Position numbers and translations under genes: made by a program
Shown here: positions 35,621-48,597 of the stretch, in pieces
Layout: each line of letters opens with the position of its first letter
Position numbering within the stretch: position 1 is the stretch's first letter
Assembly (NCBI RefSeq): GCF_024753565.1
Contig: NZ_JANTPT010000001.1
Location: forward strand, 1 to 64,000
Direction: 5' to 3'
Length of the DNA: 64,000 nucleotides
DNA from: Mechercharimyces sp. CAU 1602
GTDB lineage: Bacteria; Bacillota; Bacilli; Thermoactinomycetales; JANTPT01
Notes under the pieces: model-generated
The model's database searches: none
Told to the model about the DNA's origin: nothing
The model's input: the letters and a program-made list of their open reading frames with translations, nothing else

Positions 35621-35996
35621 GGATCCTCCTCTATGGTTACAGTTTGTTTCCTTCACGATGGAATCTTTTTAGTCTACACCAATATACCACAGCTAAAGGA
35701 GTAGGCGAGAGTATTTGAAAAGAAGGCAGACGGGCTAAGTATCTATTGGGAATAATATAGGATAAGGAAGTATCACATCCAAAAATGGAAACAACATGTA
35801 TGGGTCGGTCTAACTTTGTGAAAAAAATCACGTAATATTTACAACCCAGGTTGTTTGGTCAGCGCCTCTGGCGCAGGGAATACGCGGTTTTTCACAAGTG
35901 TAACGATGGACAAGGGTATTTGCTGGTTGACTTTATATAAAATCATGAGAAAATGTCTACACGGAATATGAATAATATGTGAAAGGAATCACAATC
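35621..35996. other. Divergent regulatory region of the NAD locus
   Basis: About 375 nt between the minus-strand GNAT/desulfurase unit and plus-strand nadB. TTGACT at 35927-35932 is a candidate -35 for nadBCA, but the matching -10 is poor. A small GCGCC-TCT-GGCGC palindrome lies at about 35862-35874. An operator for an NAD-responsive repressor is expected here; I cannot point to it. Confidence 0.45.
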
Positions 35997-37523
35997 ATGA
36001 ACCAGATCAAGACGGACTTCCTTGTTATCGGAAGTGGGATTGCGGGACTGGTAACAGCACTCTTGCTTGCGGATAAAGGCGAGGTAACCATCTTAACGAA
36101 GGAAAGAGAAGAAGCTAGTAATTCTTTTCGTGCACAAGGCGGAATTGCTGCAGCTGTAGGGATGGAAGATTCGCCGGCGCTTCATCGTGAAGATACATTG
36201 CGAACAGGCGTAGACTTATGTGATCCGGATTCGGTTGATGTCTTGGTGCAGATGGGTCCGCAAACCATTGAATTGTTGACGAAGATGGGAGCCGATTTTG
36301 ATCGTAAAGGGAAAGATTGGGCGCTTGGACGAGAAGGTGCCCACAGTGTGGCCCGCATCTTGCACGCAGCAGGCGATGCAACGGGAGCGGCGATTGCGGG
36401 CGCTTTGCTTGTGAAAGCAGTTCAACATCCACATATTTATATTCATAGTCACACCTTGGTTGCAGATTTGTTAGTGGATCAAGGAGAGTGCAGAGGGGCT
36501 CTGGCTTTTCGGACAAATCGTACTCCGATGCAGTATCTGGCCAATAAAGGAGTCGTGATGGCTGCGGGTGGATGTGGCCAACTCTTTAAATATACGACCA
36601 ATGATCGCGTAGCAACTGGAGACGGATTGGCAATGGCTCATCGGGCAGGAGCTGTGCTGACGGATATGGAGTTTATGCAGTTTCATCCTACTGCTCTCGC
36701 AGTGAAGCAAAATCCGATGTTTTTGATCTCAGAAGCGGTAAGAGGTGAGGGCGCGATCTTGGTTAATGATCGTGGTGAAGCGTTTATGAGTCGTTACGAT
36801 GAATGGAAAGACCTCGCCCCTCGTGACGTGGTGTCACGAGCGATCTACCAGGAGATGCAAGAGGGACGTAAAGTATATTTGGACGCTCGTATGTTGGGGA
36901 AACACTTTGCCGCTCGCTTTCCTACAATTTATCAAGAGTGTAGGAGACAAGGGCTTCACCCTGCTAAGGATTTATTGCCGGTAACGCCAGCGGCTCACTT
37001 CATTATGGGAGGAATCCGAACTGATTCCCACGGACAGACCAATATCCCTCGTTTGTATGCGTGTGGCGAAGTGGCATGTACGGGTGTACATGGGGCAAAT
37101 CGCTTGGCGAGCAATTCATTGCTGGAAGGATCGGTATTTGCACAAAGAGTAGCCGCTTCGATGGATCAATTACCAGAGTGGATCGGGGAAGTAGATACTT
37201 CTCCTATCGCTGCTCTTCCTTTAAAATTAGAACGGGATGAGAAGATGCGTCTGCGTATTCAGGAGATCATGTGGGAGCGCTGTGGCATCGTTCGCTATGT
37301 GGAGAATTTAGAAGCAGGTTTAGCTGAACTAAACGCCTTGGAGGAAGAGGTATCCCCATGCAACTGGGAAGCGCGCAACTTGATTACGACGGGAAAGGTT
37401 ATTATTCAGTCCGCATTGTGGCGAGAAGAGAGCCGCGGAGGTCATTACCGTAGAGACTTTCCAGCTTCGCTAGATGAATGGAAGAAAAAACATTACTTTG
37501 TCACGTTGGGAGAAGCGAAATGA
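35997..37523 (+). CDS. nadB: L-aspartate oxidase
   Basis: A 508-residue FAD enzyme that oxidises aspartate to iminoaspartate, the first step of de novo NAD synthesis. The Rossmann 'VIGSGIAGLVTALLLA' is at residues 11-26, with 'SFRAQGGIAAA', 'MEFMQFHPTAL', the active-site Arg block 'VRGEGAILVNDRGEAFMSRYD' and 'ACGEVACTGVHGANRLASNSLLEG' region. ATG 35997 follows AAAGGA by 9 nt; an in-frame GTG at 35979 is upstream of that site. nadC overlaps its stop by 4 nt. Confidence 0.96.
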   Translation: MNQIKTDFLVIGSGIAGLVTALLLADKGEVTILTKEREEASNSFRAQGGIAAAVGMEDSPALHREDTLRTGVDLCDPDSVDVLVQMGPQTIELLTKMGADFDRKGKDWALGREGAHSVARILHAAGDATGAAIAGALLVKAVQHPHIYIHSHTLVADLLVDQGECRGALAFRTNRTPMQYLANKGVVMAAGGCGQLFKYTTNDRVATGDGLAMAHRAGAVLTDMEFMQFHPTALAVKQNPMFLISEAVRGEGAILVNDRGEAFMSRYDEWKDLAPRDVVSRAIYQEMQEGRKVYLDARMLGKHFAARFPTIYQECRRQGLHPAKDLLPVTPAAHFIMGGIRTDSHGQTNIPRLYACGEVACTGVHGANRLASNSLLEGSVFAQRVAASMDQLPEWIGEVDTSPIAALPLKLERDEKMRLRIQEIMWERCGIVRYVENLEAGLAELNALEEEVSPCNWEARNLITTGKVIIQSALWREESRGGHYRRDFPASLDEWKKKHYFVTLGEAK

Positions 37524-38356
37524 ATCGATTACAGATGGACCCCATCATCCACACAGCCCTCATAGAAGATCTAGGCGCAGGAGATGTTACAACCGATGCA
37601 CTCGCATCAGAAACAGAGCAAAGCAAGGTGACGCTATTGGTTAAACAAAGCGGTGTAGTTGCCGGTATGCCTGTTGCTAAGCGTACTTTTCAACTTTTGG
37701 ATGATAATGTGATCTTTACCCCACTTTGTACGGATGGCGATCAAGTAGAGGCAGGCACCCCTATTGCTCACATCAGCGGAACAACGCGAGCGCTGTTAAG
37801 TGGAGAGCGCGTGGCGCTCAATTTCATGCAACGGATGAGTGGCATTGCCTCTGAAACAAGAAAGATTGTTGATCTGGTAGAGGGATTAGGGTGTGCTGTT
37901 TTGGATACACGTAAAACAACTCCTGGTTTACGTCCCTTTGAGAAATATGCAGTCCGTATGGGCGGTGGTGTGAATCATCGCTATGGACTAAGCCATGGAG
38001 CGATGCTAAAAGATAATCATATCGCAATGGCGGGTAGTATTGCTGAAGCGGTACATCGTGTGCGCGCTAGAAATGGTCATATGGTGAATATCGAAGTAGA
38101 GGCAGACACATTGGAACAAGTAAAGGAGATCGTCAACTTAGAAGTGGATGCGATCTTGCTTGATAATATGGATATTGCCACTTTGAAGGAAGCTGTTACT
38201 TGGATTGATGGACGCGTATGGACAGAAGCATCGGGAGGATTAACACCTGAGACGGTACGGGCGGTTGCCCAGACCGGTGTCGATGCAATCTCGCTCGGAT
38301 GGTTGACTCATTCAGCGCCGGCGTTAGATATTAGTTTGGATTGGGGTACATCATAG
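37520..38356 (+). CDS. nadC: Quinolinate phosphoribosyltransferase (carboxylating)
   Basis: A 278-residue enzyme converting quinolinate and PRPP to nicotinate mononucleotide. 'LIEDLGAGDVTTDAL' at the N-terminus, 'LNFMQRMSGIAS', 'LDTRKTTPGLRPFEKYAVRMGGGVNHRYGLSHG' region and 'EVEADTLEQV' with 'LLDNM' are diagnostic. ATG 37520 overlaps the nadB stop (ATGA). GGAGAAG upstream supplies the site. Middle-gene position breaks the biochemical order but matches Bacillus. Confidence 0.96.
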   Translation: MNRLQMDPIIHTALIEDLGAGDVTTDALASETEQSKVTLLVKQSGVVAGMPVAKRTFQLLDDNVIFTPLCTDGDQVEAGTPIAHISGTTRALLSGERVALNFMQRMSGIASETRKIVDLVEGLGCAVLDTRKTTPGLRPFEKYAVRMGGGVNHRYGLSHGAMLKDNHIAMAGSIAEAVHRVRARNGHMVNIEVEADTLEQVKEIVNLEVDAILLDNMDIATLKEAVTWIDGRVWTEASGGLTPETVRAVAQTGVDAISLGWLTHSAPALDISLDWGTS

Positions 38357-38370
38357 AAGGAGGAGTAAAT

Positions 38371-39477
38371 ATGCAGACCAGTATACTAAACCCGGTTAAC
38401 GCGAGCTTGCCCGAAGAGCTGCGCTCGCTCACATATAAGGAGTATGATGAACGGATTCGCAAAGCGATAGCTCAACTAGGAGACGACTTGGTTATTCTGG
38501 GCCATCATTATCAGCGTGATGATGTGATTCAATATGCGGATTATCGGGGTGATTCACTTCAGTTGGCCAAAGTAGCGGAGAAGCTTGGCGATAAAAAGTA
38601 TATTGTCTTTTGTGGTGTTCACTTTATGGCAGAGACGACAGATACGCTTACATCAGAAGAACAGAAAGTCATTCTTCCTGATATGCGCGCCGGTTGCTCG
38701 ATGGCGGATATGGCAGATATTGATGAAGTAGAAGAAGCATGGGAAGCGATTCAAGCGCAGTTGGGCGATACCGTGATTCCTGTTACTTATGTAAACTCGA
38801 CAGCAGCGATCAAATCGTTTGTCGGGCGTCATGGGGGGACAACATGTACTTCGTCCAATGCGCATCAAGTGTTGGAATGGGCATTTGCACAGAAAAAGCG
38901 GATACTGTTTTTGCCAGACCAGCATCTGGGTCGCAATACCGCTTTTGATATGGGGATTCCATTGGAACAAATGGTGGTATGGGATCCTAAAGCAGGTGAC
39001 TTTGAAGGTTTAGAGTGTGAGTTAGAAGAGACGCGTATGCTTCTATGGAAAGGTCATTGTTCTGTACATGAGAAGTTTACTGTCGAACAAATCGAAGGTC
39101 ATCGGGAACGTGATCCTGAAATGAAGATTATTGTACACCCGGAATGTTCACACGAAGTTGTACAGGCAGCAGATGATAATGGTTCTACAAGTTACATCAT
39201 CAATCAGATCGAAGCGGCTCCAGCCGGTAGTAAGTGGGCGATCGGTACTGAAGTCAATTTGGTACAACGCTTGGCTAACGATCATCCGGAACAGGAAATT
39301 CGTCTTCTCAGTAATACAATCTGTCCATGCTTAACGATGAACCGTATTGACCAGCCTCATCTGTTGTGGGTGTTGGAAGGCTTGGTGCGTGATGAAGTAA
39401 TTAACCAAATCACTGTTGATCCCGAGACTACAAAATGGTCTCAAGTAGCGTTAGATCGAATGTTAGGGATCAGTTAA
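38371..39477 (+). CDS. nadA: Quinolinate synthase
   Basis: A 368-residue [4Fe-4S] enzyme condensing iminoaspartate with dihydroxyacetone phosphate. 'ILGHHYQRDDVIQYAD' binds substrate; cluster cysteines fit 'CGVHFMAET', a middle Cys in 'HPECSHEV' and the C-terminal 'NTICPC'. ATG 38371 follows AAGGAGGAG by 8 nt and lies 14 nt behind nadC. The nearby cysteine desulfurase is its probable cluster-building partner. Confidence 0.96.
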   Translation: MQTSILNPVNASLPEELRSLTYKEYDERIRKAIAQLGDDLVILGHHYQRDDVIQYADYRGDSLQLAKVAEKLGDKKYIVFCGVHFMAETTDTLTSEEQKVILPDMRAGCSMADMADIDEVEEAWEAIQAQLGDTVIPVTYVNSTAAIKSFVGRHGGTTCTSSNAHQVLEWAFAQKKRILFLPDQHLGRNTAFDMGIPLEQMVVWDPKAGDFEGLECELEETRMLLWKGHCSVHEKFTVEQIEGHRERDPEMKIIVHPECSHEVVQAADDNGSTSYIINQIEAAPAGSKWAIGTEVNLVQRLANDHPEQEIRLLSNTICPCLTMNRIDQPHLLWVLEGLVRDEVINQITVDPETTKWSQVALDRMLGIS

Positions 39478-39611: not shown

Positions 39612-39958
39612 ATGTTCGCTCTTCTCTCTAAACGGAAAGAAGAGTTAGAAAAATATAATAATGAGCGTTGTAGGTGCAAATCATGACTGGATAGTCTGAT
39701 TTGCTTAAAAGGGAAGCCGGTGTAAAACCGGCGCGGTCCCGCCACTGTAAGTGGGAGCCTTCTATATGATCCACTGTCCGTATGGGATGGGAAGGAGTAG
39801 AAGGTGATGATCATGAGCCAGGAGACCTGCCTGTAACGTCAACACGAAATTCCTACGAGGATAGGAGGTGTTGTGGGATGAGGATACAAGCCGTCTGAGT
39901 GCGGTGTGTATTAATCATGGACCCATACCAACCGGAACCCGTAGTGACGGGTTTTTTT
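39612..39958 (+). promoter_or_regulatory. Cobalamin riboswitch with terminator platform
   Basis: The conserved core is clear: AGGTGCAAATC near 39672, AAAAGGGAAGCCGGTG near 39707, the B12 box neighbourhood GCGGTCCCGCCACTGTAA near 39732-39749, and GAGCCAGGAGACCTGCC near 39815-39831. Downstream, AACCCGT/ACGGGTT (39936-39953) with a following T tract is an intrinsic terminator, so the switch probably ends transcription when a cobalamin is bound. It controls the DUF4430/ECF operon that follows. Confidence 0.95.
39936..39958 (+). terminator. Riboswitch-controlled terminator
   Basis: AACCCGT and ACGGGTT around AGTG, followed by seven T, lying 36 nt before the first start codon of the operon. Confidence 0.85.
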
Positions 39959-39993
39959 GCGTTTATATAAGTATGAAGAAAGGGTGTGATGTA

Positions 39994-42021
39994 ATGACAC
40001 ATCATCTTTACCGCTGGATTTTGTTTTTGGCTACCTTTATGTTGTTCTTTCTCTTTCCGGGGATATCATTAGCTGAGACGAGTACAGAAGATGTTGAAAG
40101 TTCCCTTACTATATCTGTTGTGGGAGAGAAGCAGCAGAGTATGATGACTGGATCCATCTCTTTTACTCATTTGGAAGGAGATACGGCATTCGAAGCTTTG
40201 CAGGCAGTGTATCAAGGGCAGATTGGATATAGTGGTTCTGGGAGAACGCTGTATGTACATGATATCGGGGGTTTGACTGAATTTAAGCGAGGTGCACTCA
40301 GTGGATGGGTGTACCGGGTGAATGGAAAGTACCCAACGGAGAGTGCGGGCTCGTATCAAGTATCAGATGGAGATGTGATTGAGTGGCTGTATACAACCAA
40401 TAATGGTATAGATCTTGGATATCCGTTAACAGAGAGTCAGGCGCGTAACGGTAATAATATGGCTCGATCGGTGACTCAACCTTCTGCTGAAACAGACGAG
40501 CAAACAGATGTAGGCATGAGGGATGATGACAAAGAGCGAAAACAAGTAGAGGCGCACAAACCAGCTCCGGTGGTGGAGCAGGCTGGTTCAGAGCGAGCGG
40601 TAACTAAAGATAAGGCGGTTCATTCTGTGTCCGCGTTACAGAGCGAATCAAAAGAACCGCCACCTACTATAAGTGACATGGGGCGTGAGGAGCGAAAAGG
40701 GAAAGACAAGAAGAAAAAAGAGGATGCTTCTGAAAAACTGCTCCAATGGACATTAGATCATTACATTAATTCGGAGTGGCAAATTATTGGTCTGTATCAA
40801 GCGGCGGGAATTGTTCCAGAAGGTTATCTTCAAAAAGTTGAAGCACAAGTGCAAGCTAATCAGGGAGAATTCCGCAGAGTAACAGATTATGAGCGTCTTA
40901 TTCTCGGTATTTTAGCAGGCGGTGGAGATCCACGAAATATAGGTGGATACGACCTTGTCGAAAAATTGTATAACAACGAGAGGATGACGTACCAAGGATC
41001 GAATGGAGTGATTTTTGCGCTAGTAGCGTTGGATGCTTATGATTATGCAATTCCTGAGGATGCGTTGTGGAATAGGGGCAAATTAGTTGACTGGCTATTG
41101 GAACATCAGAACGATGATGGGAGCTGGGCGCTTTCTCAGGGGGCAGGAGATGTCGATATTACCGCAATGGTATTAACTTCGCTTGCTCCTTACGAAGATG
41201 CGAAGGTGGAAGAGGCAAAGCAAAAAGGATTTATATGGTTGTCGGCGCGTCAAAAAGAATCCGGAGGGTTTGAATCTTGGGGGAGTGAAACGAGTGAAAG
41301 TGCGTCACAAGTAATGATTGCACTATGTTCGAATGGGATTTCCCCCACCTCGCTCGCTTTTACCAAGCCAGGGGGTAATCTGCTGGAAAATTTGTTATCG
41401 TACCAAGAAAAAGATGGTGGATTTGCTCATGTGAAAGGGGGAGGCAGTAACCATATGGCAGGGGAGCAGGCGTTGATTGCTCTAACTTCATATCGAAATC
41501 TGCTTGAAGGAAAATCACGTGTATATGATTTTACTCCACTAGTGGAACCGGAGCCAGAACCAGACCCCGAGCCGGAGCCAGATCCGGGTCCCGAGCCCCA
41601 ACCGGATCAAGAGGAATCGCAAGGAACTCCTCCTATGCAAGCGCCCACTCCTACACCTGTAGTGTTGGTAGATGAGCAGCCACTTATGGAATACCCCGTT
41701 ATTTATCATTCATGGTATCAGGCAGCCACACCTCGACAGACAGTTGTAAGACCAGCTGTAGTGAATAACAACATTGCAACAAGAGCAGAGGATTCTGAAT
41801 CAGCAGCCCCCGGTGTTGTGACAGATAATGAACCGGAAGAGAATCAGCTCACTTTCGTAAGCGAGGATGAACAGAAAAATAAGTACGCGGCAGCCACACC
41901 CGCTTCTCCACAGGTAAAGAACAGAGAGATGAGAGAGTGGATGATCGTATTAGTCGGTGTTGTGATGGTGCTGATGGGACTGGCTTTATATCTTTATGAT
42001 AAAAGGAGAGGGTGGCAATGA
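39994..42021 (+). CDS. Membrane-anchored transcobalamin-like protein (DUF4430 + alpha/alpha barrel)
   Basis: A 675-residue surface protein. Residues 1-27 are a signal peptide. Residues 36-142 form a DUF4430 domain, the fold of the C-terminal cobalamin-binding domain of animal transcobalamin ('GDTAFEALQAVYQ', 'LSGWVYRVNGKYP', 'DGDVIEWLYT'). After a charged linker, residues about 245-508 carry terpene-cyclase-like repeats ('NDDGSWALSQGAGDVDITAMVL', 'QKESGGFESWG', 'KDGGFAHV'), the alpha/alpha barrel also used by transcobalamin. A Pro/Glu repeat (about 515-545), a linker and a C-terminal TM (about 648-668) with KRRGWQ follow. ATG 39994 was chosen for its signal peptide and GAAAGGG; a longer frame runs back through the riboswitch. 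B12-riboswitch control implies cobalamin capture. Confidence 0.85.
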   Translation: MTHHLYRWILFLATFMLFFLFPGISLAETSTEDVESSLTISVVGEKQQSMMTGSISFTHLEGDTAFEALQAVYQGQIGYSGSGRTLYVHDIGGLTEFKRGALSGWVYRVNGKYPTESAGSYQVSDGDVIEWLYTTNNGIDLGYPLTESQARNGNNMARSVTQPSAETDEQTDVGMRDDDKERKQVEAHKPAPVVEQAGSERAVTKDKAVHSVSALQSESKEPPPTISDMGREERKGKDKKKKEDASEKLLQWTLDHYINSEWQIIGLYQAAGIVPEGYLQKVEAQVQANQGEFRRVTDYERLILGILAGGGDPRNIGGYDLVEKLYNNERMTYQGSNGVIFALVALDAYDYAIPEDALWNRGKLVDWLLEHQNDDGSWALSQGAGDVDITAMVLTSLAPYEDAKVEEAKQKGFIWLSARQKESGGFESWGSETSESASQVMIALCSNGISPTSLAFTKPGGNLLENLLSYQEKDGGFAHVKGGGSNHMAGEQALIALTSYRNLLEGKSRVYDFTPLVEPEPEPDPEPEPDPGPEPQPDQEESQGTPPMQAPTPTPVVLVDEQPLMEYPVIYHSWYQAATPRQTVVRPAVVNNNIATRAEDSESAAPGVVTDNEPEENQLTFVSEDEQKNKYAAATPASPQVKNREMREWMIVLVGVVMVLMGLALYLYDKRRGWQ

Positions 42022-42731
42022 CGAGAAGAATATCCATCTTTTTAATTGCAATTGGTTTGCTGTTTGTAGGGGCTGGATCTTGGGAAGCGTTGGCTAGTTC
42101 TCCTTTGGTGGAAGAAACTTTAGCTGGTGACGAAAAAGATGTGAAACGATCGGGTCAAAGCGAACTCTCATCGAATCAGATTGAAAACCAAAGTGAAAAA
42201 GAGAATGTAAGCGCAGATGATAATAATACCGAAACTTCCTATTCATCAGAAATGAAGGTTAAGGCCACATCTACAGAAGTTCAAACAGAAAACGCTATTA
42301 CAAAAAAAGACGAGAGACGCACGATAACGAGAACAGCTCCTTCGAACTCCTCTTCACAGCAAGCTGAGCGTGCAAAAAAAGAGAATGCACAACCAACAGC
42401 TACTTTTTCGATTCACGGCAGTGGGGGTCAGACTGTACTATCAGCACGCGCGGTGACATTAGTAGAGGGAGATACGGTGTTTGATGTACTTCAACGTGCC
42501 ACGCAAGCGACAGGGGTTCAAATGGAATATCGTGGATGGGCTCATACCTTGTATGTAGAAGGCATAGACAACTTGTACGAATTTGATGAAGGGCCGGAAA
42601 GTGGCTGGATGTATCGAGTAAATGGAGTTTTTCCCAATAAAAGTGCGGGGATTTATGATGTGGATGAAGGAGATGTGATCGAATGGCTCTATACACGCGA
42701 CCTCGGACGTGATATTGGAGCGGAATTTTGA
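42018..42731 (+). CDS. Exported DUF4430 protein, second cobalamin-capture candidate
   Basis: A 237-residue exported protein: N-terminal signal/anchor helix (about 6-28), a long Ser/Glu/Lys-rich linker (30-125) and a single C-terminal DUF4430 domain (about 127-235) with 'EGDTVFDVLQRAT', 'GPESGWMYRVNGVFP' and 'EGDVIEWLYTRDLG'. It matches the domain of the upstream protein but lacks the barrel. No lipobox Cys is seen, so the N-terminal helix may be the only anchor. ATG 42018 overlaps the upstream stop by 4 nt; GGAG lies 9 nt before it. Confidence 0.85.
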   Translation: MTRRISIFLIAIGLLFVGAGSWEALASSPLVEETLAGDEKDVKRSGQSELSSNQIENQSEKENVSADDNNTETSYSSEMKVKATSTEVQTENAITKKDERRTITRTAPSNSSSQQAERAKKENAQPTATFSIHGSGGQTVLSARAVTLVEGDTVFDVLQRATQATGVQMEYRGWAHTLYVEGIDNLYEFDEGPESGWMYRVNGVFPNKSAGIYDVDEGDVIEWLYTRDLGRDIGAEF

Positions 42732-43588
42732 TGAGGATCGGTTTTCAAGCTTTGCACCCTGCTATTACCGTTTTTTATTATGTTGGCGCCCTTTCTCTCC
42801 TCTTCCTTCTCTTTCATCCTCTGTTCATTGTGACAGGGGTGACTCTCTTGCTAGCAATGAACTTTCTCTATGATGGTGGGAAGGGCGTTTGGAAATGGAA
42901 AGGAATGATGTTGATTACAACCATTCTTTTGATTGTAGTAAATGTAATCACATCACAGCGTGGTTCCGTTATTCTCTGGCAGGGTGAACGGTACCGAATT
43001 ACAGGTGAATCTTTACTATATGGCACCATGATGGCAGGAATGATCGTTGCTGTCATTATGCTCTTTATTTCTTATCAACAGGTGGTTACTGCGGATAAAT
43101 TTCTATATCTATTTGCGCGTCTTCTACCCCAATGGGCAATGCTGACGATGTTAGCGGTTCGTTTTATGCCGCTGTTGCGGGAGCGCTTAAGCGAGATTGA
43201 AAAGGTCCAACGAGTGCGACTGGGGGAAGGGACACCTGGATGGAAAAAGCGAATGCAGCGTAAGATGAAACAATTAGAAGTATTACTTACTTGGTCGTTA
43301 GAAGAGGGACTGCAGTCAGCCGATTCGATGAGAGCACGTGGATATGGTGTGGGTAGACGAACCGCTTATGTGTATTGGCGTTGGCGAATGAGGGATAGCT
43401 GGTCTTTGTTCATCTTGGGGGCGCTTATGCTCTTCTGTTATTGGGGAAGGTGGCAGGGATGGGGGGTGCTGGATATTTACCCGGATTTGGAGCGATTCTC
43501 TTTGATAGAAGCTGAGTGGCTTTTATTGATGGGATATCTACTATTTATTAGCTTCCCTATCTTGATTGAAGCAAAGGAGACCTTATGA
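42731..43588 (+). CDS. ECF transporter T component (EcfT/CbiQ family)
   Basis: A 285-residue membrane protein with N-terminal helices at about 14-42, 55-75 and 95-118, an amphipathic cytoplasmic region and a C-terminal pair. The coupling-helix motif 'EGLQSADSMRARGYG' (about 195-210), an A-R-G signature that docks onto the ATPases, is diagnostic of EcfT. 'VRFMPLLRERLSEIEKVQRVR' precedes it. The ATG shares a base with the upstream stop (TGATG). With its neighbours it forms a dedicated group I-like ECF importer. Confidence 0.9.
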   Translation: MRIGFQALHPAITVFYYVGALSLLFLLFHPLFIVTGVTLLLAMNFLYDGGKGVWKWKGMMLITTILLIVVNVITSQRGSVILWQGERYRITGESLLYGTMMAGMIVAVIMLFISYQQVVTADKFLYLFARLLPQWAMLTMLAVRFMPLLRERLSEIEKVQRVRLGEGTPGWKKRMQRKMKQLEVLLTWSLEEGLQSADSMRARGYGVGRRTAYVYWRWRMRDSWSLFILGALMLFCYWGRWQGWGVLDIYPDLERFSLIEAEWLLLMGYLLFISFPILIEAKETL

Positions 43589-45252
43589 TGAATGTACTTA
43601 CATGTAAAGAGCTCAGCTTTACCTTTGCAGGAGAGAAAAGCCCCACTTTGAAAGAGATCTCGATGGGAATAACTCCGGGAGAATTTGTACTTTTATGTGG
43701 TCCAACGGGTTCTGGGAAAAGTACGCTTTTGCGAATGCTCAAACAGGAAATTCAACCGGCAGGGGAACAATCAGGGGAAATATGGTATAAAGAGAGTGAA
43801 TTGGGGCGTGTAGAAGCGAGCCGAGCCGCAGCGGAGATTGGTTTTCTGTTTCAAAATCCTGAGCATCAGATTGTGATGGAAAAGGGTTTGGAAGAGCTAG
43901 TGTTTGGTATGGAGAATTTAGGATATCCGCCAGCGCTCATGCGGAGGAGAGCGGCAGAAGCGAGTGCTTATTTGGGTTTGGAAAAAGAGTTATCCCAACA
44001 GACGTCTACGTTGTCAGGGGGAGAAAAGCAATTATTAAATTTGGCATCACTCTTGGCGATGAAACCTCGAGTATTACTCTTGGATGAACCAACAGCACTT
44101 TTGGATCCTGTGCACGCTCTTCAATTTCTACAGACATTAAAGCGTTTTAATCAGGAAACGGGTATGACCGTGATTTTGTCCGAACATCGGTTGGAAGACG
44201 TGTATCCACTGTGTGATCGTGTGCTCATGTTGGAGAATGGACGGCTTGTTTATAATGGTTCTCCGAGAGAAGGGATACGATGGTTGGCAGCAAAGGGGGG
44301 GAGTCTTCGAAAATGGATGCCTACGGTTCCAGCGACACTATCGGCTTTACAGCAAAATAATAAAACGGAGGATGATGTGCCACTAACGATTGCAGAAGGA
44401 AGAAGGTGGCTATTAAAAATAGCCCCTTCTACTAGAGCAGGTGCACAGCGCGCTGCCGCTTCCCTTGAGGCAAAGACGACACCGCCTCGGCGCCCGCTCT
44501 GTTCATTAGAAAAAATTCAGTTTACCTATAGGAATGGGCAACAAGTGTTAACTGAGCTTAATCTCAAAGTGTTACCTGGGGAGTGCGTAGCAGTATTGGG
44601 AGGCAATGGTTCCGGTAAGTCAACGCTGTTACAAGTGGTTGCAGGTCTACTTCGACCTCGGAAGGGCTTGGTCCGTTTGCCGAGGAAAGAGCATCGAATC
44701 GGGTACCTTCCGCAAAATATAGAATCTTTTTTCTTGGGGGATACATTATCGCAGGAAATAGAATTTGTCACAGAAGGTGTAGGAAGTGAAGAAGGGGGTA
44801 ACAAGCATCAAGATATCGTACAGTTATTTTCGCTGAACCCTCTGCTGGAGCAACATCCTCTTGATCTAAGTGGGGGGGAGAGACAAAAAGCGGCACTTGC
44901 TTGTTTACTCTTACAAAAACCAAATATGTATTTGTTGGATGAACCCACACAAGGAATGGATCCAGTTACCAAGGAAATATGTAAGCATTCTTTGTTACAA
45001 CGAGCATCAGAAGGTGCGGGCATTCTTTTTACCACCCACGATGTGGAGTTTGCTGCTGAGGTAGCAACACGTTGTGTCATGTTGTTTGAAGGTGAAATCA
45101 TTGTTTCAGAGCCGACGGCTGCTTTTTTTCGTGGCAATGATTTTTATACAACAGCGGCGTATCGGTTAACGCGCGAAACGGGATGGCCTGAGGGGATTAC
45201 GATGAAGGAGGTGCATACCCTGTGGGACGGATTGGTTGGCGCGCGTTTGTAG
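43585..45252 (+). CDS. ECF transporter ATPase, fused A and A' domains
   Basis: A 555-residue protein containing two complete ABC ATPase domains. Domain 1: Walker A 'GPTGSGKST' (about 40), signature 'LSGGEKQ', Walker B 'LLLDEPTALLDP'. Domain 2: Walker A 'GGNGSGKST' (about 338), signature 'LSGGERQ', Walker B 'YLLDEPTQGMDP'. The linker lies at about 250-300. Both sites look catalytically intact. A single-chain A-A' replaces separate EcfA1 and EcfA2. It overlaps ecfT by 4 nt with AAAGGAG before the ATG pair. Confidence 0.93.
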   Translation: MMNVLTCKELSFTFAGEKSPTLKEISMGITPGEFVLLCGPTGSGKSTLLRMLKQEIQPAGEQSGEIWYKESELGRVEASRAAAEIGFLFQNPEHQIVMEKGLEELVFGMENLGYPPALMRRRAAEASAYLGLEKELSQQTSTLSGGEKQLLNLASLLAMKPRVLLLDEPTALLDPVHALQFLQTLKRFNQETGMTVILSEHRLEDVYPLCDRVLMLENGRLVYNGSPREGIRWLAAKGGSLRKWMPTVPATLSALQQNNKTEDDVPLTIAEGRRWLLKIAPSTRAGAQRAAASLEAKTTPPRRPLCSLEKIQFTYRNGQQVLTELNLKVLPGECVAVLGGNGSGKSTLLQVVAGLLRPRKGLVRLPRKEHRIGYLPQNIESFFLGDTLSQEIEFVTEGVGSEEGGNKHQDIVQLFSLNPLLEQHPLDLSGGERQKAALACLLLQKPNMYLLDEPTQGMDPVTKEICKHSLLQRASEGAGILFTTHDVEFAAEVATRCVMLFEGEIIVSEPTAAFFRGNDFYTTAAYRLTRETGWPEGITMKEVHTLWDGLVGARL

Positions 45253-45911
45253 TCATTACTCTTTTTTGTTCGTGGCAGGTTACGCGCTGGCTCGCGTTAG
45301 GCCCTTTTTGGACTAGTCTGGTATTACTCGCATGTTTTATTTTTCTGATGATTATTCGATTTGAACGATCAGACGTCAATAGTAAGGAGTTGGTGCTTAT
45401 TGCGCTTTTGATTGCAATAGCGGCGGTTAGCAGAGTTCCTTTTGCTGGAATTCCAAGTGTGCAGCCAACTACCTTCGTTATTATTGTAGCGGCAATCGTA
45501 TTGGGTGCAGAACGGGGGTTTGTCATTGGCGCGGGAGCGGCGTTAGTGTCAAATATGTTTTTGGGTCAGGGACCCTGGACTCCTTGGCAAATGGTAAGTT
45601 GGGGGTTGGTAGGTTGGACAGCAGGGGTATTGAAAGATACTTTTATCATGAAAAATATGAGCACTCGGTTGCTTTTCGGGTTTGTATGGGGGTTTCTATT
45701 TGGTTGGATCATGAATGTGTGGGTGGTGATCGGGATGGAGAATCATAGTTGGTCTACATTTGTTTCCGTCTACGTTGCCAGCTTCTATTTTGATTTGGCT
45801 CATGCATTATCTAATCTATTTTTTCTGGCTGCATTCTCTTCACGTTGGGTGAGGGTTTTAGCAAGGTTTAAGAGAAAGTACGGTTTAGTGATCGCATCTT
45901 CTTCCAATTGA
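45222..45911 (+). CDS. ECF transporter S component, probable cobalamin-binding
   Basis: A 229-residue protein with about six to seven membrane helices. 'LLIAIAAVSRVPFAGIPSVQPTTFVIIVAAIVLG' (two helices, about 67-100), 'GAGAALVSNMFLGQGPWTPWQM' and 'WGLVGWTAGVL' fit the CbrT-like S-component family of ECF importers. Specificity for cobalamin is inferred from the riboswitch and DUF4430 partners. GTG 45222 follows AAGGAGGTG by about 10 nt and lies 31 nt inside the ATPase gene, so translation is coupled. It ends the operon. Confidence 0.85.
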   Translation: MGRIGWRAFVVITLFCSWQVTRWLALGPFWTSLVLLACFIFLMIIRFERSDVNSKELVLIALLIAIAAVSRVPFAGIPSVQPTTFVIIVAAIVLGAERGFVIGAGAALVSNMFLGQGPWTPWQMVSWGLVGWTAGVLKDTFIMKNMSTRLLFGFVWGFLFGWIMNVWVVIGMENHSWSTFVSVYVASFYFDLAHALSNLFFLAAFSSRWVRVLARFKRKYGLVIASSSN

Positions 45912-45970: not shown

Positions 45971-46078
45971 TTAGTAAACACCGCATCCGCATACAAAAAC
46001 GAAGATGGTTGCGATTACCAATAAGAAGATTAGTAAGCTTTTGTATCCGAAACAACCATAATTATACCCACAACTCAC
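45971..46078 (-). CDS. Tiny Cys/Gly/Tyr membrane peptide A (YjcZ-like, 35 aa)
   Basis: The GTG at 46078 lies 9 nt after AAAGGAGG and opens a 35-codon frame. The peptide begins 'MSCGYNYGCFGYKS', continues with one hydrophobic helix 'LLIFLLVIATIFVFV' and ends 'CGCGVY'. The Gly/Tyr-rich head, single helix and family length recall the YjcZ-type sporulation membrane peptides. A near-identical copy follows at 46257-46373. The frame was too short for standard ORF cut-offs. Confidence 0.8.
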   Translation of the reverse strand: MSCGYNYGCFGYKSLLIFLLVIATIFVFVCGCGVY

Positions 46079-46204
46079 ACTGCATTCCTCCTTTACCGTT
46101 TTCACTATATAAGATATGTAGAGAGGGGGAAAACGCGCGGGTGTATGCCTTTCTCGATCAGAAACAGGCAGATATCATTAATTGGAGTTGTTTTACTTAT
46201 AGGG

Positions 46205-46256: not shown

Positions 46257-46373
46257 CTAGTAGTAACCGCATCCGCATACGAAGACGAAGATGGTCGCGA
46301 TCACGAGCAAAAAGATAAGCAGGCTTTTGTAGCCGAAGCATCCGTAATTGTAACCACAGCTGTAGCCACTCAT
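46257..46373 (-). CDS. Tiny Cys/Gly/Tyr membrane peptide B (YjcZ-like, 38 aa)
   Basis: The ATG at 46373 follows GGAGG by 10 nt. The 38-residue product starts 'MSGYSCGYNYGCFGYKS', has the identical helix 'LLIFLLVIATIFVFV' and ends 'CGCGYY'. It differs from peptide A by a three-residue insertion at the N-terminus and one residue near the end. The two genes are tandem, same strand, each with its own SD and terminator-like hairpin, so they are a recent duplication. Probable spore-related membrane peptide, by analogy only. Confidence 0.82.
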   Translation of the reverse strand: MSGYSCGYNYGCFGYKSLLIFLLVIATIFVFVCGCGYY

Positions 46374-46520
46374 AAACGGCATTCCTCCTCTGTTGGGATC
46401 TATATATACATATGTTTTTCCTCTGTAATGGAGCGGGTAGATGCCTTGGTTTTACGGAAAAGAGGCGACTACCCCTCATCAACTTTCTTTGCTAAAAACC
46501 TGTGCTTTTCATTCTTCCTA

Positions 46521-46550: not shown

Positions 46551-46600
46551 CGACGTAGGTGATGGTGTGCGAAAATAGGATCATCACCGATAAGTGTATA

Positions 46601-46692
46601 GCAACGGGAGCTTGGAGAAGCCAGGCTGAGAGGGCGGGAACTCTACGCCGACCGATAAACCTGATCTGGGTAATGCCAGCGTAGGAATGGTG
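46601..46692 (+). promoter_or_regulatory. TPP (THI) riboswitch
   Basis: The THI-box is complete: ACGGGAGCTTGG and CCAGGCTGAGAGGG near 46604-46634, then CGACCGATAAACCTGATCTG near 46649-46668 and GGTAATGCCAGCGTAGG to 46685. It controls thiC downstream in response to thiamine pyrophosphate. Confidence 0.97.
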
Positions 46693-46737
46693 GGATAAGG
46701 GACTGGTTTGCGATTGTGCAGACGTCCTTCCTCGACA

Positions 46738-46818: not shown

Positions 46819-48597
<1,779 letters not shown>

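Follow-up and report, generated by a model that had tools for sequence, protein, structure and literature searches.

Proteins that capture vitamin B12 at the cell surface for a membrane importer are known from Bacteroides, in which the B12-binding surface lipoproteins BtuG, BtuH, and BtuJ work with the TonB-dependent BtuB (PMC6143338, PMC8941943, PMC13398666). The exported proteins of the locus analyzed here presumably are functional analogues of these, with other folds and another partner. In low-GC Gram-positive bacteria, according to Burroughs et al (2007; PMC1796856), transcobalamin-like SLBB domains are exported, fused to a toroid in either order, and often paired in an operon; their genes adjoin those for CbiO and CbiQ in hosts lacking B12 synthesis, and B12 scavenging was proposed as their role. 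The present locus shares with those proteins the DUF4430–toroid fusion, a second exported DUF4430 protein, the CbiO/CbiQ genes, and a host without B12 synthesis, but the accessible text of that paper names neither an S component, CbrT then being undefined, nor a riboswitch and gives no co-occurrence counts. After a prediction in 2009 (cited in PMC5997447), experiments in 2018 proved that CbrT binds and transports both cobalamin and cobinamide (PMC5997447). The ECF-CbrT complex of Lactobacillus delbrueckii (6FNP; Santos et al, 2018; PMC5997447) needs no DUF4430 protein for cobalamin transport, whether it is expressed in E. coli or purified. The locus resembles that complex in its S component (35% identity over the membrane domain), EcfT, two ATPase domains, and B12 context, but has a dedicated module with fused ATPases and exported DUF4430/toroid proteins heading the operon, whereas L. 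delbrueckii ECF-CbrT uses a shared group II module. The locus is therefore a case of a known kind, B12 scavenging by such operons having been predicted in 2007 and CbrT having been characterized in 2018.

The locus (39612–45911) lies in a 64,000-nt stretch of contig NZ_JANTPT010000001.1 of Mechercharimyces sp. CAU 1602, which as a whole is referred to as the window. Its features, all on the + strand, are as follows.

39655–39848, +: cobalamin riboswitch aptamer (RF00174); covariance model, 121.5 bits (gathering score 31.5 bits), E 6e-30, model positions 1–189 of 189
39934–39955, +: intrinsic terminator ahead of gene 1, with a stem of 9 pairs, a 4-nt loop, and a T run
39994–42021, +: gene 1, exported protein of 675 aa with signal peptide, DUF4430, linker, alpha/alpha toroid, Pro/Glu-rich stalk, and C-terminal membrane anchor (sequence, Pfam)
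40177–40395, +: DUF4430 of gene 1, transcobalamin beta-domain-like (Pfam E 3.7e-16; model match)
40747–41514, +: alpha/alpha toroid of gene 1 (squalene-cyclase/prenyltransferase PF13243, E 6e-7, over cut-off)
41938–41997, +: transmembrane anchor at the C-terminus of the gene 1 protein, with DKRRGWQ after it (sequence)
42018–42731, +: gene 2, exported DUF4430 protein of 237 aa with N-terminal signal or anchor, low-complexity linker of ~95 aa, and C-terminal DUF4430 (sequence, Pfam)
42468–42695, +: DUF4430 of gene 2 (Pfam E 2.3e-20)
42731–43588, +: gene 3, EcfT (CbiQ family) transmembrane coupling protein (PF02361, E 2.2e-12)
43585–45252, +: gene 4, fused EcfA–EcfA' ATPase with two ABC domains (Pfam E 1.2e-56)
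45222–45911, +: gene 5, CbrT-like ECF S component, GTG start (PF07155, E 4.8e-11; PF12822, E 2.1e-9; closest solved structure ECF-CbrT 6FNP)

The original prediction of one cobalamin riboswitch followed by five overlapping genes was confirmed: Infernal matched RF00174 over its full length, and the genes overlap, in order, by 4, 1, 4, and 31 nt. Distant Bacilli have this arrangement as well, so it is not due to chance. The terminator was also present in the predicted RNA fold (z −2.3) and is likely the expression platform, which would turn transcription off when B12 is bound. Since it sits within the longer frame of gene 1 that begins at the first in-frame GTG (39868), this start was rejected in favor of ATG 39994 or the alternative ATG 39973. 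A motif scan found no LPXTG in the gene 1 protein; the product of gene 2 has a hydrophobic N-terminus and carries its DUF4430 at the extreme C-terminal end. In the window, both exported proteins appear to be membrane-held or secreted. The importer belongs to group I of the ECF systems, as one operon encodes the S component, EcfT, and both ATPase domains. The five-gene set almost certainly imports B12 into this Gram-positive bacterium, and it very probably constitutes a B12-repressed, dedicated group I CbrT-type ECF importer for cobalamin or cobinamide, whose transcobalamin-related surface pair would capture the corrinoid and hand it over.

The identity of the S component was central to this reading. 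A profile built from 41 relatives retrieved 6FNP from the PDB with 134.9 bits (E 3e-38), the next match being FolT (4hzu) with 23.8 bits, which bore out the predicted ECF-CbrT type. Gene 5 alone, used as a phmmer query against the PDB, also found 6FNP (E 3.2e-17), and L. delbrueckii CbrT as the query retrieved gene 5 from the genome (E 8.5e-17, 35% identity). Gene 5 is closer to CbrT than to the other solved S components and, as judged from these alignments, is a homologue of this proven cobalamin S component. That it carries another vitamin, riboflavin or folate, as hinted at by the names of PF07155 and of NCBIfam folT_fam (E 4e-5, under its cut-off), is extremely improbable: the match to CbrT is far better than that to FolT, the operon is headed by a cobalamin riboswitch, and the S component co-occurs with DUF4430. 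As the profile picks CbrT, and CbrT handles cobalamin and cobinamide, the “riboflavin” label is a family-level name and no evidence of substrate; riboflavin or folate specificity deduced from family names was thus rejected.

The exported proteins were compared with the animal B12 carriers. When 68 DUF4430 domains of these operons were combined into a profile and the PDB was searched with it, human haptocorrin (4kki) came first (E 1.9e-5), followed by the uncharacterized bacterial protein 3u7z and then by transcobalamin 2 and intrinsic factor (E 0.01–0.02). The transcobalamin family thereby ranked above all else in the PDB, as expected from the prediction that DUF4430 has the fold of the C-terminal domain of transcobalamin/intrinsic factor. 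The Trp of the SGWMYxVNG motif is invariant in the bacterial DUF4430 set and aligns with a Trp of the animal proteins, and in a structural model (see below), the DUF4430 of gene 1 superposed on 3u7z with a TMt of 0.79 and on the beta domain of human transcobalamin (5no0) with a TMt of 0.69. The PF14478 match together with a beta-grasp fold like that of the transcobalamin C-terminal domain places it in the transcobalamin-like clade of SLBB domains. By its profile matches, DUF4430 is homologous to the transcobalamin beta domain.

The companion prediction was that the barrel has the N-terminal fold of transcobalamin. Searched against the PDB, the toroid profile retrieved terpene cyclases, with squalene-hopene and drimenyl cyclases as the best sequence matches, and no direct link to transcobalamin at E 0.1; a toroid–DUF4430 profile yielded none at 0.01. 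Consequently, it is fold and context that connect the toroid with transcobalamin. An AlphaFold model of the DUF4430–toroid protein of the window (mean pLDDT 79 from 18 sequences, with the toroid mostly >90) matched drimenyl diphosphate synthase best (E 9.7e-6), with transcobalamin behind (1.6e-4); its two domains match transcobalamin-family folds separately, and the toroid prefers cyclases in the structure search. Both the sequence relatives and this ranking count against the capture-and-import reading. The sequence relatives would fit a toroid that is an enzyme, akin to terpene cyclases or prenyltransferases, and is found in a B12-transport neighborhood incidentally. However, the catalytic DXDD motif of the cyclases is absent (the window reads DVDI, and the fourth position is Asp in 3/47 toroids), and the toroid is part of an exported fusion with DUF4430 that recurs in many such operons, so that we give an enzymatic role next to no credence and rejected the toroid as a candidate terpene cyclase.

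A fold match over both domains comes from a homologue of gene 1 in another species. The animal carriers are single soluble chains in which the toroid precedes the beta domain; the gene 1 protein shares the homologous beta domain and a toroid of the same fold with transcobalamin, haptocorrin, and intrinsic factor, but its order is reversed (DUF4430 first), it has a membrane anchor, and its ligand contact is putative. Some homologues (L063 and L064) have the same domain order as the animal family. The AlphaFold model of the toroid-first protein L063 (mean pLDDT 90) matched transcobalamin, haptocorrin, or intrinsic factor with each of its 15 best PDB hits, over both domains (~440 columns, E 4e-11 to 2e-9), and the next class of structures followed at E 1.6e-4. 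The predicted orientation of its domains was not superposable on transcobalamin (rmsd ~17 Å), which, the model being ligand-free, is weak evidence either way.

The conservation of the system was followed by HMM and motif annotation of 45 more loci, all surrounding a relative of the S component (46 with the window included). DUF4430 was found near the S component in 44 of these 46 loci and a B12-box riboswitch, by motif, in 32; of ten related loci scanned with Infernal, RF00174 was present in eight (L018–L022, L063, L065, and L092) and not found in L072 and L094. Named relatives with the system include members of Kroppenstedtia, Polycladospora, Caldibacillus, Oceanobacillus, Neobacillus, Cohnella, and Paenibacillus. 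The toroid/DUF4430 proteins vary in length from 636 to ~1,800 aa and contain as many as three toroids; SLH domains were present in four of the five head-of-operon proteins scanned with Pfam. The second protein, with DUF4430 at its C-terminus, is usually encoded directly 5′ of ecfT. By a simple pattern, a lipobox-like motif was recognized in about half of the proteins with DUF4430 alone, many of them at the gene 2 position. SLH domains in the one and lipobox-like motifs in the other suggest a pattern for many species in which the wall or S-layer holds the first protein and the membrane holds the second. The operon in L065 has no toroid whatever, in other Bacilli the system is pared down to a lone S component with one small DUF4430 protein (L092, L093, and L094), and in L162 the order is PduO-DUF4430-CbrT. 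By this gene content, the constant partner of CbrT is DUF4430, not the toroid.

Several loci deviate in detail. In a relative of Polycladospora, the counterpart of gene 1 consists of two overlapping frames, DUF4430 and toroid (L018:5330–7230), either a true split or a frameshift. In another family group (L078, L079, L081, L087, and L088), the toroid protein follows the S component instead of heading the operon, and DUF4430 is divergent. A second B12-box lies directly downstream of the S component gene in L084 (1309–1325, −), probably marking a further B12-controlled unit after that operon. DUF4430 in three genomes (G039–G041) was discarded as further cases, the matches being weak and no CbrT-like gene being nearby.

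To put the partnership in numbers, co-occurrence was counted in 399 genomes of the class, taken in a single fixed draw. Of these, 140 had DUF4430; the S component of the window as the query matched 141 genomes, and L. delbrueckii CbrT matched 136, from 47 genera. Every one of these 136 CbrT genomes, including those with a lone S component, also had DUF4430. Six first-pass S-component genomes without DUF4430 were rejected, their matches being weak (E 8.7e-5 or worse) and vanishing with CbrT as the query, and the four genomes with DUF4430 and without CbrT showed no more than marginal matches to DUF4430 (E 3e-4 to 6e-4). Fisher's test for DUF4430 against CbrT gave 2e-103 for genomes, with relatedness ignored, and 2e-36 for genera (47 and 49 of 146), which are still non-independent. 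Because the DUF4430 gene lies elsewhere in two of the genomes (G244 and G127), the association is not merely the by-product of one inherited operon. The complete overlap suggests that DUF4430 is the standing extracellular partner of CbrT. A stronger version, put forward tentatively and with the balance of our judgment against it, is that the partner is obligate: a DUF4430 lipoprotein would cap or load cobalamin on the S component, as the transcobalamin beta domain caps it on its toroid, and toroid–DUF4430 proteins, where present, would add a relay from wall to membrane. If true, this would be an ECF class with a dedicated substrate-delivery protein, contrary to the widely shared idea that these importers work without one.

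The interpretation given in the original prediction, capture of cobalamin on the wall side and hand-over to the ECF S component, is supported by these data; corrinoid binding by the exported proteins, repression of the operon with B12 bound, and the hand-over itself are steps we infer. When B12 is scarce, the riboswitch would let transcription run through the terminator. The stalked, membrane-anchored gene 1 protein would then trap a corrinoid outside the membrane with its DUF4430 and toroid, and the tethered DUF4430 of gene 2 would pass it to, or keep it on, the CbrT-like S component, whose cargo EcfT and EcfA–A' would drive inward. As L. delbrueckii ECF-CbrT works without DUF4430, the surface proteins are not mechanistically essential and would matter for affinity or access, not for translocation. 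This competence of ECF-CbrT on its own (PMC5997447), and the wall anchoring implied by SLH domains in homologues of gene 1, would also suit exported proteins that merely store or concentrate corrinoid at the wall like a sponge while CbrT works alone. We consider such a role unlikely, if not by a wide stretch, as it is at odds with the retention of DUF4430 in every CbrT genome, even as a single small lipoprotein gene beside a lone S component and without a toroid protein.

Whether capture and import would be of use to this host was judged from its genome, which encodes a CarH-like protein and the enzymes IcmF, lysine 5,6-aminomutase, and methylmalonyl-CoA mutase, the last of these in split form and with an epimerase. 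CbiC was not found in the genome (assembly 98% complete) by a search that was positive in seven control genomes. Because CbiC is absent and B12-dependent enzymes are present, imported B12 is probably needed. The only other cobalamin riboswitch of the genome (G000:C1:2025294–2025487, −) heads btuF-btuC-btuD-pduO (L026:1573–5328), so that two differently built B12 importers stand under the same kind of switch. Judged from CbiC as the marker of the pathway, the bacterium is most probably auxotrophic for B12 and has two importers. As BtuFCD is riboswitch-controlled too, the operon is not the sole route for B12, which counts against our reading of it. A division of labor is suggested by the shared type of switch, and CbrT carries cobinamide besides cobalamin (PMC5997447); the system might accordingly prefer another corrinoid, cobinamide or a particular cobamide, with the DUF4430/toroid pair setting the selectivity, which we regard as rather improbable.

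The following points go beyond what was described before: the S component is CbrT-like; DUF4430 and CbrT are strictly paired, even in a two-gene form; the exported proteins show the anchoring pattern given above; and the predicted structure of a toroid-first homologue matches whole transcobalamin. As far as could be found, the function of the bacterial relatives of the human B12 carriers has so far solely been predicted; in the literature searched, whose coverage excludes most subscription journals, there was no experimental test of B12 binding by DUF4430. The operons name CbrT as the importer that these transcobalamin relatives would serve and offer a compact test bed, and with the full co-occurrence (136/136 genomes, 47 genera), what was a general guess becomes the sharp prediction that DUF4430 and CbrT are partners. 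Should DUF4430 bring ligand to an ECF S component, it would be an exception to the model of ECF importers without delivery protein, and an origin of transcobalamin as a transporter accessory would become testable.

The surroundings of the operon were also inspected. Downstream, on the − strand, two small Tyr/Gly/Cys-rich membrane peptides are encoded at 46260–46382 and ~45980–46085, namely MPFMSGYSCGYNYGCFGYKSLLIFLLVIATIFVFVCGCGYY and a near copy; the first had no Pfam match at E 0.001, and both look like YjcZ-family sporulation proteins. Further downstream follows a second riboswitch:

46594–46704, +: TPP riboswitch (RF00059), 60.5 bits

Downstream of it lies a gene that, from its sequence, is thiC-like (46840–48597). 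Directly upstream of the operon (35979–39477, +) are nadB-nadC-nadA-like genes with overlapping ends. An operon for NAD synthesis thus adjoins loci for B12 and thiamine.
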